Below, piece by piece: positions 2,678 to 22,042 of a stretch of DNA of 64,000 nucleotides. A model generated the notes under the pieces. It was not told the DNA's origin, did not search any database, and saw only the letters and a program-made list of their open reading frames with translations. Position 1 is the first letter of the stretch. Every line of letters begins with the position of its first letter. Origin of the DNA: Rhodospirillales bacterium (lineage in GTDB: Bacteria; Pseudomonadota; Alphaproteobacteria; ATCC43930; CGMCC-115725). Location: positions 62,001 through 126,000 of the forward strand of contig CANJCB010000001.1 of the NCBI GenBank assembly GCA_947473305.1, read 5' to 3'. The position numbers and the translations under genes are program-made.

Positions 2678-3769
2678 TTAAGAGGCCATCCACTGAGCGT
2701 AACGCTCTTCGAGTTTGGCATAGTTGACGCCCCAGGCGGGGTCGATCCGGACGCCCACCGCCAGGTTCGCCGGATAAGTCGGAAGGTCCTTGGCGACATT
2801 CTCGGGAATGAACTTGAAGGCTTCGGGGTTCGCCGGCCCGTAGGGCAGACGCTGGGCATAGTCCGCCAGCCGCTCCGGCTGGATCGATTGCTTGATATAT
2901 TCCCAGGAGGCCTTGATGTCCGGCGCGCCCTTGGCGACGCCGATGTTGGTGATAAGCATCATGTTGCCTTCCCAGACCAGTTCCACGGGAACGCCCTGCT
3001 TTTGCAGGTCGGTCGCCCGCGCGTTCCAGATCATCATCATGTCGACCTCGCCGTCGCGGAGAAGTTGCTGCGACTGGGTACCTTGCGTCCAGAAGACCTT
3101 GATATGGGGTTTGAGCTCATCGAGCTTCTTGAAAGCCCGGTCAAGGTCGGGCGGATAGAGCTTGTCTTTCGCCACTCCATCGGCCTGCAGCGCCGCGAGA
3201 ACCGAGGTGATGGCATCGCCGGCATTAAAGCTGCGGTTGCCTGGAAATTTCTTCACGTCCCAGAAATCCGCCCAGTTCTTAGGCCCGCCGTTCGGGAACT
3301 TGTCCTTCCGGTAGCAGAGGTTGTTCGAGAGCGTGGTGAAACCAATACCGTTGGCATAGACGGCGCCATCCCAGAGCTTGCTCTTATCGATGATGGTCCA
3401 GTCGATGGGCTCGACCAGCCCTTCCTGCTCGGCTCGGCCCCATTGGGCCTGGTTGAGCGTGGTTATGTCCCATTCGTATTGGCCCGACGTCACCTGGGCT
3501 TTCCACTTGGCGTAGGAAACCGGCGTCACAGGCTTGACCGGGATGCCCGTCGCCTTCGTGAAGGGCTTATAGAAAGCCTCGTTCTCAGCTTCGGTGAGCA
3601 CGCCACCCCAGGTGTTCATCAACACCTGCTTGTTTTGCGCCTGAGCCTCTTTGGCGAGGAGGAATTGATCCGCCAGCGCGGCAGTCATAACGACGCCCGC
3701 GCCCTTCAGGAAAGTCCGTCGTGTCTGCTGCGATTTTGTCCTGGTCATTTTCTTCTTCTCCGCGCTCAT
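2678..3769 (-). CDS. ABC transporter periplasmic substrate-binding protein (PotD-like), Tat-exported, paralogue 2
   Basis: Extracellular solute-binding protein of the polyamine/spermidine-like class. The N-terminus has a twin-arginine signal (TRRTFLKGAG) followed by a hydrophobic Ala-rich segment and an AQA cleavage region. The mature part begins with MNTWGG and includes FYKPFTKATGI and the TQSQQLLRDGEVDMM motif. By eye it is about two-thirds identical to the gene immediately upstream, so the two are tandem duplicates. The first codons lie in one copy of a 32-bp tandem repeat: ATG at 3769 has GGAAG in front of it, and an alternative ATG at 3748 has GGAG about 11 nt upstream. No permease or ATPase gene is adjacent, so it is an orphan binding protein beside a dioxygenase. 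Confidence 0.9.
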   Translation of the reverse strand: MSAEKKKMTRTKSQQTRRTFLKGAGVVMTAALADQFLLAKEAQAQNKQVLMNTWGGVLTEAENEAFYKPFTKATGIPVKPVTPVSYAKWKAQVTSGQYEWDITTLNQAQWGRAEQEGLVEPIDWTIIDKSKLWDGAVYANGIGFTTLSNNLCYRKDKFPNGGPKNWADFWDVKKFPGNRSFNAGDAITSVLAALQADGVAKDKLYPPDLDRAFKKLDELKPHIKVFWTQGTQSQQLLRDGEVDMMMIWNARATDLQKQGVPVELVWEGNMMLITNIGVAKGAPDIKASWEYIKQSIQPERLADYAQRLPYGPANPEAFKFIPENVAKDLPTYPANLAVGVRIDPAWGVNYAKLEERYAQWMAS

Positions 3770-3813
3770 GAGGACTTCCAGTTCTTCTTCTCCGCGCTCA
3801 TGAGGACTTCCAG
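3750..3813. repeat. Perfect 32-bp tandem duplication at a gene junction
   Basis: The 32 bases at 3750-3781 (beginning TTCTTCTTCTCCGCG) recur exactly and immediately at 3782-3813. The upstream copy carries the last codons and stop of the first binding-protein gene; the downstream copy carries the start of the second. Because 32 is not a multiple of 3, the ATG in the first copy (3801) opens only an 11-codon frame that ends at the second copy. The likely origin is slippage or local duplication. Confidence 0.95.
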
Positions 3814-4874
3814 CTGGCGTAGCGTTCTTCGAGCTTGGCGAGATTGTCGGCGCCCCAGATCGGGTCGACGGACACACCGATCTCCAGGTTCTTGGGATAA
3901 GTCGGCAGGTTGCGCGCCGCCGCTTCCGGAATGAACTCATAAGCCTTTGGATTGGCTGGCCCATAATAAAGCCGTTGTGCATAATCCGCCAGCGGTCCGG
4001 GCTGCAAGCAGAATTTCACATATTCCCAGGCGAGCTTGGCATTGGGGGCCTTCTTGGCCACACCGAAGACAGTCACATTGTTGATGGCCTGATCCCAAAC
4101 AAGCTCGATCTTATGCCCTTGGGCGATAAGTTCGCTGGCACGCGCGTTCCAGATCAGCATCATGTCGACCTCGCCATCGCGAAGAAGTTGCTGGGACTGG
4201 GTGCCCTCTCGCCAGAAGACCTTGATATGCGGCTTGATCTCTTCAAGCTTCTTGAAGCCTCGATCCAGGTCCAGCGGGTAAAGCTTGTCCTTGTGGACCC
4301 CATCGGCCATGAGCGCCGCCATGACGGCTTGGACCGCATCCCCGTCATAAAGGCTGCGGGTGCCGGGAAACTTCTTCACATCCCAGAAATCTGCCCAGTT
4401 GCGGGGTCCGCCGTTCGGAAACTTGTCTTTGAGATAGCAGATGTTGCTCGACAGCATTGTGCTCGCGATCCCATTCGCGAAGACCGCTCCCGGCCAGAGC
4501 CAATCCTTGCCGACGATATCCCAGTCGATGGGCTCGACCAGCCCTTCGCGCTCCGCGCGCAGCCATTGGGCCTGATTGATCGAGGTGATGTCCCATTCGT
4601 AATGGCCGCTCGTCACCTGCGCCTTCAACTTGACGTAGGACACCGGGGTCACCGGCACGACCTTGATGCCGGTCGCCTTGGTGAAGGGCTTGTAGAACGC
4701 TTCGTCCTGAGCCTGGGTGAGGCTGCCGCCCCAGGTGTTCACATACAGCGTACGGGTCTGCGCGATCGTCCGATCGGTGATGATCAACGGCCCCGCCACC
4801 GCGGCCCCAGCCACAGCACCTGCCCGTTTCAGAAAACTACGTCGGCTCTGACCCATTCTCGCGGATTGTCCCAT
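3798..4874 (-). CDS. ABC transporter periplasmic substrate-binding protein (PotD-like), Tat-exported, paralogue 1
   Basis: Binding protein of 358 aa, first gene of the dioxygenase operon. The ATG at 4874 was chosen because GGGAGGAA (4878-4885) precedes it at good spacing; an upstream in-frame start has no such site. The N-terminus carries a twin-arginine signal (SRRSFLKRAG) with a hydrophobic core AGAAVAGPLII. The mature body shares with its downstream paralogue the segments FYKPFTKATGI, QVTSG-YEWDIT, KDKFPNGGP and QSQQLLRDGEVDMM. It probably captures a small organic solute for an importer encoded elsewhere, presumably the dioxygenase substrate or a relative (inference from context). Confidence 0.9.
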   Translation of the reverse strand: MGQSARMGQSRRSFLKRAGAVAGAAVAGPLIITDRTIAQTRTLYVNTWGGSLTQAQDEAFYKPFTKATGIKVVPVTPVSYVKLKAQVTSGHYEWDITSINQAQWLRAEREGLVEPIDWDIVGKDWLWPGAVFANGIASTMLSSNICYLKDKFPNGGPRNWADFWDVKKFPGTRSLYDGDAVQAVMAALMADGVHKDKLYPLDLDRGFKKLEEIKPHIKVFWREGTQSQQLLRDGEVDMMLIWNARASELIAQGHKIELVWDQAINNVTVFGVAKKAPNAKLAWEYVKFCLQPGPLADYAQRLYYGPANPKAYEFIPEAAARNLPTYPKNLEIGVSVDPIWGADNLAKLEERYASWKSS

Positions 4875-19129: not shown

Positions 19130-22042
19130 ATGGCGAAACGCATGCTTCTCGACACGACCCATCCCGAAGAGACAAGGGTGGTCGTGCTCAATGGCAACCG
19201 TCTCGAAGAATTCGACTTCGAGACGTCAACCAAGAAACAGATAAAAGGCAACATCTACCTCGCGAAGGTTACGCGGGTAGAACCTTCCCTCCAGGCCTGC
19301 TTCGTCGAATACGGCGGCAACCGGCACGGCTTCCTCGCCTTCAGCGAGATCCATCCCGACTATTACCGGATCCCTGTCGGCGACCGGCCGCCCCGTTCCA
19401 TGTCCGAGCGGTCCTACGACGATGAGGATCGCCACGACGATCATCATCGGCAGGAAACGGCCCATGACACCCACGATCACGAGCATCATGGGCAAGACGA
19501 TCATGACCACGAAGATCATGACCATGAGCATCACGACCACGATGGTCACGACCAGCATGATGACGCTCACAGCGACCATGGGCATGAGGACCTAGCCCCG
19601 GACCATCGGGAAGCCGAAGCGACCGTTTCCTCTTCGCCCGAAGCCTTTCCCAGGACCGAGGCCCCGGCCGAAATCCCCGGCATGGAAGTGGCCCAGGGCC
19701 AGGAACTCGACTTCCAAGGCGCGGTTCCGCTGAAGACCGACCAGGGGGACGAAGCCCCCTCCGCCGTCCAGGAGATCGTGACCGAGCCCCAGACCGTTGA
19801 GACCCTCGACGGCGGCGACGACATCGACGAGCAGGTCCGCCACCGTGCACGTTCCACCCGGCACTACAAGATCCAGGAAGTCATCAAGCGCCGGCAGATC
19901 ATGCTGGTCCAGGTGACCAAGGAAGAACGCGGCAACAAGGGCGCCGCGCTCACGACCTATATGTCGCTCGCCGGCCGCTATTGCGTGCTGATGCCCAACA
20001 CCGGGCGGGGCGGCGGCGTGTCGCGCAAGATCACCAATGTCGCCGATCGTCGCCGGCTCAAGGATCTGGTGGGCGACCTGGAACTGCCGGACGGGATGGG
20101 CGTCATCGTCCGCACCGCGGGCAGCGAGCGGTCCAAAGCCGAGATCAAGCGCGACTACGAATATCTGATGCGGCTTTGGGAGGAGATCCGGGATCTCACC
20201 CTGAAATCGACCGCGCCGGCCCTCATCTACGAGGAAGGCAACCTCATCAAGCGGGCGATCCGCGATCTCTATTCCCGCGACATAGACGATATCATCGTCG
20301 ACGGGGAGGAAGGCTACAAGACCGCCAAGGCCTTCATGCGGATGCTGATGCCGAGCCACGCCAAGCGGGTTCAGCTCTACCGCGATCCGATCATCCCCCT
20401 CTTCCACCGCTTCCAGGTGGAAGGACAGCTCGACGCGATCCATTCCCCGGTGGTCCAACTCCGTTCCGGCGGCTACATCGTTATCAGCCCGACCGAGGCC
20501 CTGGTGGCGATCGACGTCAACTCCGGGCGCTCGACGCGCGAGCGGAATATCGAGGAGACGGCGCTCAAGACCAATATCGAGGCTGCCGAGGAAGTCGCCC
20601 GCCAGCTTCGGCTGCGCGACCTTGCCGGGCTCATCGTGATCGACTTCATCGATATGGAGGAGCACCGCAACCAGGCGGCGGTCGAGCGCCGGATCAAGGA
20701 TGCGATGCGCCACGACCGCGCAAGGATCCAGCTCGGCCGGATCAGTCCCTTCGGGCTTCTGGAACTGTCGCGCCAGCGGCTCCGGCCTTCCCTGGTCGAA
20801 GCCTCGACCCAGCCCTGCCCCATGTGCAGCGGCACGGGCAATGTGCGCTCCACCGAATCGACGTCTCTCCATGTGCTGCGCTCGATCGAGGAAGAAGGCA
20901 TCCGCCGCCGCTCCGCCGAGATCAGCGTCACCCTGCCGACCACCGTCGCGCTTTATATCCTGAACCAGAAGCGCGACATGCTCGCCCAGATCGAGACGCG
21001 GTATAACTTCCGGGTCACGATCGGCGCCGACGACAGCCTGATTCCGCCGGACTTCCGCCTGGAGCGCCTGCGCGCCTTCACGCCGGAGGAAATCGCGGCT
21101 TTGCCCGCTCCGGTCATCGAGCTGCCGCCACCCGATCCCGAAGACGACATCGATGACGAGATAGACGAGGAGGCTGAGGAAACGGCTCCGTCCGAAGGGC
21201 CGGCCGAGGAAGGCTCCCAGGACCGGCAGGACGGCGAGCACGGCCGCCGCCGCCGCCGCCGCAAACGTGGACGGCGCGGCGACGAAGAGCGGGATACCCG
21301 TTCCCCAGGCGAAGATGCCCCGCGTGACGAGACACAGGGCGAAGAGACTGAAGGCGAAGACACTCAAGGCGAAGACCTTGCTGCCACGGCGGAGGGCGAA
21401 ACCTCTGGCGAGGAAGCGGCCGGAACCCCTGAGGGTGAGGCCGAAGGCGACCGGCAGGACGACGAGGAGGGTGGCCAAGGTCGCCGCCGCCGCCGTCGCG
21501 GCCGGCGAGGCGGACGCCGCCGGGGCCGCCCGGAGGGTGGAGATGCCGAGGCCGGCGAAGCCGAGACCGGCCCGTCGGAAGCCAGCGATGGGGAAACCTC
21601 GGAGACCGGGGCAAGCGAACCCACGGTCGCTGCCGAGATGGTCGAAGCCGTCCCCGCGGAGCCCGCGGCCGAGGCCTATGGGCCAGCCGTCGAGATGAAG
21701 GAAGCCCTGGCGAGCCTCCCGGCCGTCGAGGCTGAAACAGTCGAAGCCCCGGTAACGCCCCGGCGGGGGCGCAAGCCCCGGGCCGAAGGCGAAGCCGCGC
21801 CTAAGCCGCGCCGCCGCAAGCGTGCCGGCGAAGCCGAAGCCGAAGCGGTAGAGACGGCGGAAGCGCCTGTGGCGGAGGCAGCACCTCCGCCTGCGCCGGA
21901 GCCGGCCCCTGTCGCCACCTTCCCCGAAGCTCCACCGGAGGAACCGGCAGCCGCGCCGCCCCCGGCCGTAGCCCCTCAAGCCGTCACAGGCCCCTCTGCC
22001 GCGCCCCGCAAGGGCTGGTGGCAGAGACTGACCGGGAACTAA
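19130..22042 (+). CDS. rne: Ribonuclease E/G with a large His/Asp-rich insertion in the S1 domain
   Basis: Endoribonuclease of 970 aa, core of the RNA degradosome, processing rRNA, tRNA and mRNA. Catalytic metal ligands are D462 (VAIDVNSGRS) and D505 (VIDFIDM); their 43-residue spacing equals that of E. coli D303/D346. The zinc-link motif is CPMC at 563-566. The first catalytic Asp is about 159 residues later than in E. coli because of an insertion within the S1 RNA-binding domain (about residues 95-245); residues 97-160 contain 21 His among Asp/Glu. The C-terminal 290 residues are disordered, acidic and Ala/Glu/Pro-rich, with Arg clusters near 704-720 and 784-800 as expected for RNA-binding degradosome scaffolds. 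Confidence 0.96.
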   Translation: MAKRMLLDTTHPEETRVVVLNGNRLEEFDFETSTKKQIKGNIYLAKVTRVEPSLQACFVEYGGNRHGFLAFSEIHPDYYRIPVGDRPPRSMSERSYDDEDRHDDHHRQETAHDTHDHEHHGQDDHDHEDHDHEHHDHDGHDQHDDAHSDHGHEDLAPDHREAEATVSSSPEAFPRTEAPAEIPGMEVAQGQELDFQGAVPLKTDQGDEAPSAVQEIVTEPQTVETLDGGDDIDEQVRHRARSTRHYKIQEVIKRRQIMLVQVTKEERGNKGAALTTYMSLAGRYCVLMPNTGRGGGVSRKITNVADRRRLKDLVGDLELPDGMGVIVRTAGSERSKAEIKRDYEYLMRLWEEIRDLTLKSTAPALIYEEGNLIKRAIRDLYSRDIDDIIVDGEEGYKTAKAFMRMLMPSHAKRVQLYRDPIIPLFHRFQVEGQLDAIHSPVVQLRSGGYIVISPTEALVAIDVNSGRSTRERNIEETALKTNIEAAEEVARQLRLRDLAGLIVIDFIDMEEHRNQAAVERRIKDAMRHDRARIQLGRISPFGLLELSRQRLRPSLVEASTQPCPMCSGTGNVRSTESTSLHVLRSIEEEGIRRRSAEISVTLPTTVALYILNQKRDMLAQIETRYNFRVTIGADDSLIPPDFRLERLRAFTPEEIAALPAPVIELPPPDPEDDIDDEIDEEAEETAPSEGPAEEGSQDRQDGEHGRRRRRRKRGRRGDEERDTRSPGEDAPRDETQGEETEGEDTQGEDLAATAEGETSGEEAAGTPEGEAEGDRQDDEEGGQGRRRRRRGRRGGRRRGRPEGGDAEAGEAETGPSEASDGETSETGASEPTVAAEMVEAVPAEPAAEAYGPAVEMKEALASLPAVEAETVEAPVTPRRGRKPRAEGEAAPKPRRRKRAGEAEAEAVETAEAPVAEAAPPPAPEPAPVATFPEAPPEEPAAAPPPAVAPQAVTGPSAAPRKGWWQRLTGN

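Follow-up and report, generated by a model that had tools for sequence, protein, structure and literature searches.

The rne gene and the insertion in its S1 domain

The window, a stretch of 64,000 nt from the genome of a Rhodospirillales bacterium, contains on its forward strand a gene for RNase E with an insertion in the S1 domain. The features of this gene are as follows.

19130–22042, + strand: rne, encoding RNase E of 970 aa (ORF; Pfam RNase_E_G and RNase_E_G_Thio; match to solved structures)
19367–19864, + strand: S1-domain insertion, residues 80–245 (166 aa), between DYY79 and Y246, anchors common to relatives
19418–19609, + strand: His/Asp-rich tract with 21 His, exactly codons 97–160
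19472–19591, + strand: densest 40 residues (115–154), 16 His by residue count
19472–19554, + strand: imperfect tandem repeats of 15 and 30 bp, 75–78% match (Tandem Repeats Finder)
19817–19861, + strand: residues 230–244, predicted to form a helix where the insertion is left (AlphaFold2, low confidence there)
20513–20515, + strand: Asp462 of the Asp pair, invariant in a 24-sequence alignment
20642–20644, + strand: Asp505 of the Asp pair, 43 residues after Asp462, invariant in the same alignment
20816–20839, + strand: Zn-link motif CPMCSGTG, residues 563–570, matching CPxCxGxG

The RNase E/G catalytic core was recognized in the 970-aa product by Pfam family PF10150 (E = 2.3e-101; 339 bits against a cut-off of 25.5), together with PF20833 (E = 9.3e-32), and solved chains of E. 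coli RNase E matched the product with E of ∼4e-127. The genome has one full-length copy of rne; a second match (29%, residues 332–670) lies on contig C63 in a shorter RNase E/G-like frame. Structures of the E. coli S1 domain align by sequence to residues 36–80 (E = 2e-20). The Pfam S1 model scores 20.5 bits, below its cut-off of 22, and covers residues 37–80 only, because the insertion splits the domain. Asp462 and Asp505, which we take to be the catalytic pair with the same role as in E. coli RNase E, are exactly 43 residues apart, as had been claimed in the first-pass annotation. Both cysteines of the Zn-link, C563 and C566, are invariant in the 24 aligned sequences. In one other RNase E of our set (L192) the link reads CIYSQGTG, with Ser replacing the second Cys.

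The E. coli protein aligns up to residue 79–80 and resumes at residue 247, with 9–10 E. coli residues in between; the insertion therefore amounts to ∼157 residues, in agreement with the earlier estimate of about 150. It contains 23 His and has a net charge of −34, His excluded. The AlphaFold2 model, weak overall (mean pLDDT 61.8) and used for disorder only, has pLDDT below 50 for residues 89–229, and for nearly all of the longer stretch 89–235, with block values of 26–42 over residues 91–230. The flank that holds the predicted helix is common to relatives, with ...ETLGGDE..EE... recurring in the inserts of the family. All 22 Foldseek matches of the model at E ≤ 0.001 were RNase E chains. The insertion thus occupies the same place as other alphaproteobacterial S1 insertions and, like them, is charged and predicted to be disordered. 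Voss and colleagues described S1 insertions of alphaproteobacteria and plants as highly diverse, charged, predicted to be disordered and ∼50–150 residues long (PMC4245959); in location, length class and disorder the insertion thus follows a known pattern. A departure from the usual low-complexity insert was seen in two RNases E (L049 and L052), which have in common an apparently folded stretch of ∼80 residues, from YRGVTEINPET.EILATDEK... to ...WVAFHADN.

The tract itself is composed of 21 His, 20 Asp, 6 Glu and 3 Gln among other residues, with no Asn, Lys or Tyr, and its net charge is −23 with His excluded; the count of 21 His mixed with Asp and Glu in residues 97–160, given in the first-pass annotation, is exact. 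As in His-rich metal-binding loops, dense His is combined with Asp and Glu in a loop predicted to be disordered.

Recurrence and turnover of His-rich inserts

Within the family, 39 genomes were searched and 33 rne loci were read. Inserts were readable in 31 of them (L100 and L102, cut before the left anchor, were excluded), while six genomes (G001, G018, G019, G024, G028 and G032) with only partial or paralogue-like matches were set aside. The 31 inserts are 141–367 residues long, and seven, including that of the window, are His-rich, which we define as having at least 8 His in 40 residues.

The enrichment is patchy among close relatives. The nearest row by tree path, L084, is 87% identical over 400 core columns and has an insert of 208 aa with seven scattered His, at most three per 40 residues; inserts of L086 (161 aa) and L106 (157 aa) have two His and one, respectively. 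The sisters L085 and L086 (support 98) have 12 versus 2 His. L089 and L084, which bear one genus code and are not grouped by the tree, have 22 versus 7, and the inserts of L144 and L168 have 25 and 20, against 6 in their sister L140. Seven close pairs, which were chosen as His-rich and so give no estimate of the rate of His loss, retain His at a fraction of 0.59 of the aligned sites without gaps, the same as for Ala and Gln; the values for Asp and Glu are 0.63 and 0.65.

The first-pass annotation had proposed aligning RNase E across relatives as a check of its metal-chelating reading, and had named inserts of the same length but poor in His as evidence against that reading. Such an alignment shows that the His are not conserved between close kin, and inserts of similar length without enrichment do exist (L086, L106 and L084). 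Since L084, with its 87% identical core, and L086 are without the enrichment, the tract is not a conserved metal site; a conserved metal site or switch of RNase E is rejected on these grounds.

The class was covered by an even draw of 231 genomes at least 90% complete, 229 of which had a match. Class inserts were taken from the best-scoring 100 rows of these 229 genomes, beyond the window's genome and one other, a choice that leans to nearer relatives. Among these best-scoring 100 rows, 97 inserts were readable (L118, L147 and L185 were excluded) and six were His-rich. The same clustering was found once for Gln (3.4% of residues), once for Asn (2.2%) and twice for Lys (1.9%), in comparison with His at 1.9%. 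For the commoner residues Arg, Ser, Pro and Gly, clustering is more frequent, in keeping with their abundance.

At the mean His content of the 97 class inserts (1.9%), the binomial probability of at least 21 His in 64 residues is 2e-20, a value calculated as if residues were independent, an assumption that does not hold for repeats. When the class inserts were pooled and shuffled 200 times, none reached 8 His per 40 residues against the six observed, and shuffled family inserts gave at most one against seven; the tract is therefore far beyond what composition would produce.

Taken together, 13 of 128 rows are His-rich and need 10 state changes on a FastTree tree of the core domain, a rough figure because 39 of the 125 inner branches are weakly supported. 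Judging from the sequences compared, this recurrence of His enrichment in the S1 insertion appears to be the new and more interesting fact. A further set of RNase E genes, found in part by a pattern derived from the tract, had 9 His-rich among 70 readable inserts; it overlaps the family and class sets (L009 and L095 are apparently one gene) and was not used for frequencies.

The C-terminal disordered regions of the same proteins served as a control. They were delimited by the motif C..C.G.G in 123 of 128 rows (L109, L113, L115 and L155 were too short and L192 was without the motif). While 13 of 123 inserts are His-rich, none of the 123 C-terminal regions is, so that within the proteins compared the enrichment is restricted to the S1 insertion; the highest C-terminal counts are 7 His per 40 residues in L201 and 5 in L203. 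Among 40-mers matched for Asp (at least 8 Asp), the 267 from inserts contain 2.05 His on average and the 157 from C-terminal regions 0.22; as the 40-mers overlap one another and come from related proteins, we give the means with no P value. This contrast is not predicted by a simple drift from Asp to His in any acidic stretch. The control likewise gives no support to the view that any acidic, disordered part of RNase E tends to be His-rich. Drift in a linker, the alternative offered by the first-pass annotation, thus agrees with the patchiness among kin and sits poorly with the recurrence of enrichment in the insertion and its absence from all 123 C-terminal regions.

Repeats, codons and similar tracts in other genes

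Of 300 shuffles of codon order, 1 gave a repeat score as high as that of the window's tract, compared with 68 of 300 synonymous shuffles. The protein pattern alone is therefore enough to account for the strength of the DNA repeat, and pure fresh slippage as the origin of this tract is unsupported. Three of the 13 His-rich inserts (L085, L095 and L144) do have a DNA repeat beyond the protein pattern, with at most 3 of 300 synonymous shuffles reaching the score, and recent slippage in them is likely. For the other ten, the window's included, at least 7% of synonymous shuffles reach it. Tandem repeats were detected in 12 of 13 His-rich inserts versus 43 of 109 inserts with at most 3 His per 40 residues, a comparison that is confounded by composition and leaves out the six rows with 4–7 His per 40. 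His-rich inserts are also longer (median 230 versus 156). An eleven-copy tandem repeat of 15 bp (89% match) lies at 3653–3817 of locus L009 in the RNase E insertion; its GHADA-like units make a slippage-born His repeat.

Among the His and Asp codons of the window's tract, 21 end in T and 20 in C, compared with 18 and 47 in the remaining gene; this rise of third-position T (P = 0.02) suggests that the tract is fairly young. Asn is scarce in such tracts, with 4 Asn versus 149 His across the 13 forty-residue stretches. On the minus strand, an ORF of 119 aa (19226–19585) overlaps the tract; its hydrophobic, Met/Val/Ile-rich product reads as the shadow of CAY and GAY codons.

The codon pattern for HDHDHD, counted on either strand and in any frame, occurs in 88 of the 231 class genomes. 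From 30 of these 88 genomes we took one locus each, and 29 of the 30 loci were scanned (L250 was left out), yielding 19 with a Pfam match in the frame of the tract. Ten of the 19 belong to families of metal transport, metal insertion or metalloenzymes (three CobW, three nitrile hydratase and one each of ZnuA, HMA metal ATPase, UreE and ZrgA). The other nine are not plain metal proteins: three trigger factors, two of FtsX/MacB type and one each of ABC ATPase, FecR, cupin and RNase HII, the last with the tract ahead of the domain and perhaps upstream of the true start. The three trigger factor genes (L244, L251 and L252, from three alphaproteobacterial genomes) have the tract in or near the C-terminal domain; trigger factor is a housekeeping protein that is not, to our knowledge, a metal protein. 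Alpha chains of nitrile hydratase (L223 and L241) have an HDHDHDH stretch that precedes the domain, and the FtsX/MacB-type permeases (L227 and L228) have a long His/Asp-rich stretch between two Pfam domains.

HDHDHD outside rne was found in five of six class genomes with a His-rich insert, compared with 88 of 231 with any, genome size being uncorrected; the tally includes G221, whose RNase E insert is without HDHDHD. In the window's genome, HDH[DE]H has seven matches: two in rne, one in an apparent cation-diffusion-facilitator exporter and four in seemingly non-coding frames, as judged by eye. The exporter gene (L158, contig C3) has an N-terminal His/Asp-rich tract and is, by eye, the only other convincing gene in which the pattern occurs. 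Genome-wide His-richness is unsupported: with CAYGAYCAYGANCAY, two of seven matches fall in rne and one of the five others, by eye, in a real gene.

Interpretation and comparison with known systems

The first-pass annotation had read the tract as an unusual metal-chelating segment. The tract is indeed uncommon, at 6 of 97 class inserts, and its make-up resembles that of known metal-binding loops; the part of this reading that falls is any expectation that relatives keep the enrichment. We tentatively favor a modified version, in which the tract is a labile, dispensable His/Asp segment that weakly buffers metal and sits in a hypervariable disordered insertion. A segment of this kind, partly born from repeats, would arise in the S1 insertion, and the acidic polyhistidine tether would bind numerous ions of divalent transition metals (Zn, Cu, Ni and Co), each weakly. 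The RNA degradosome is assembled on RNase E, as are its condensates in Caulobacter. A tract on this scaffold would therefore buffer metal locally: many weak sites might be added by a dense acidic His tract, which could shield the Mg-dependent enzymes of the degradosome from mis-metallation. Since no precise site is needed, the sequence of the tract could turn over, and lineages could gain and lose it. Metal binding, buffering, condensates in the window's organism and any benefit to it are what we infer here.

Several results fit metal buffering. His-rich inserts recur (7 of 31 in the family and 6 of 97 in the class, with 10 state changes), and His clusters in 13 of 123 inserts and in no C-terminal region; in class inserts, His clusters more often than Gln, Asn or Lys. 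Tracts with HDHDHD are often found elsewhere in metal handlers, including the apparent exporter of the window's genome. In Caulobacter, the RNase E fragment 451–898 binds Cu2+ through His, with one His per Cu, and in RNase E condensates (BR-bodies) PNPase stays active under copper and fitness is raised (PMC12510024). Because of this copper binding and the protection of PNPase by condensates, we favor the metal buffer, even though fragment 451–898 is not the S1 insertion. Other results speak against it: kin have a weak tract or none (L085/L086, L089/L084, L144 and L168/L140), His is retained at aligned sites no more often than Ala or Gln, and the raised third-position T (P = 0.02) and the repeats are as slippage would give. 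Further, nearly half of the HDHDHD loci with a Pfam match (9 of 19) fall outside the plain metal proteins, and the C-terminal contrast is not absolute, given L201 and L203.

Ranking close behind, and itself a serious contender, is neutral turnover of low-complexity sequence: the insertion would tolerate almost any acidic disorder, and changes from GAY to CAY together with slippage would make and lose His repeats of no function. The patchiness of enrichment within genera is what this process would leave, as are the absence of positional constraint on His, the greater length of His-rich inserts, their tandem repeats (12 of 13 versus 43 of 109) and, in L085, L095 and L144, DNA-level repeats beyond the protein pattern. 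It is harder to reconcile with 0 of 123 C-terminal disordered regions, even after matching for Asp, or with the near absence of Asn, the transition product of Asp; moreover, in 10 of 13 inserts, the window's included, the repeat score is within the expectation from the protein pattern. If neutral turnover is the true reading, the case exemplifies low-complexity turnover that stays within a single insertion of an essential enzyme.

If, on the other hand, the metal buffer is real, one protein would link RNA decay to metal homeostasis, and the fast-evolving and poorly understood S1 insertion would gain a testable role, for which sister species that differ in having the tract offer natural pairs. 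Untagged native RNase E from species with the tract could then bind to nickel resin. A bolder form, which we consider rather doubtful, would make the S1 insertion a recurrent landing place for metal-loading His/Asp tracts, with which alphaproteobacteria would again and again turn the degradosome into a metal-responsive condensate or buffer, with mRNA decay tuned by free zinc or copper.

Somewhat less probable still, and in our opinion unlikely, is a switch at the RNA channel, in which the acidic tract would mimic RNA and block the cleft, and Zn or protonation of His would neutralize the tract and so gate the enzyme or alter recruitment of RhlB. The Caulobacter S1 insertion is partly helical and protrudes into the predicted RNA site, RNA mimicry has been suggested for its acidic side chains, and the S1/5′-sensor fragment containing it binds the helicase RhlB (PMC4245959). 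The charge of the window's tract (−23, His excluded) would suit such a role, but the tract is predicted to be disordered and close kin are without the His, while a switch of an essential enzyme should be kept. A supply of zinc to the Zn-link of RNase E itself, as proposed for His-rich tails of metallochaperones, is quite improbable: the window protein has the link (CPMCSGTG), and UreE and CobW families have the same kind of tract, yet the C..C.G.G pair is present in 127 of 128 rows and 115 of 128 are without a His-rich insert. Selection on an antisense gene (19226–19585, minus strand) or on a repeat at the DNA level, instead of on the coding strand, is scarcely credible, since the overlapping 119-aa hydrophobic ORF that suggests it reads as a codon shadow and most of the relatives read have no such tract.

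A literature search limited to open-licence papers, and hence weak evidence of absence, returned no paper on a His-rich insertion in RNase E; in PMC4245959, the word ‘histidine’ is used twice, both times for purification tags. The closest known counterpart is the S1 insertion of Caulobacter crescentus RNase E (PDB 4OXP), a structure that matches the window protein by sequence. Both insertions occupy the same S1 site and are charged and predicted to be disordered; the window's has 166 residues and differs by its His/Asp-rich center, which is found in 13 of the 128 relatives. The theme in common with Caulobacter RNase E and its BR-bodies (PMC12510024) would be RNase E as a His-based metal binder that protects a partner enzyme, which for the window protein is a prediction by analogy. 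Unlike the copper-binding fragment 451–898, with its one His per Cu, the window protein has a dense tract in the N-terminal domain. Loops of the zinc proteins ZnuA, ZrgA, CobW, UreE and PA4063 resemble the tract in being disordered surface loops with dense His and Asp; those of PA4063 are disordered without zinc and form micromolar sites that use Asp and His (PMC8561739). These five are transport or chaperone proteins, whereas the window protein is an RNase in which the tract is not conserved.
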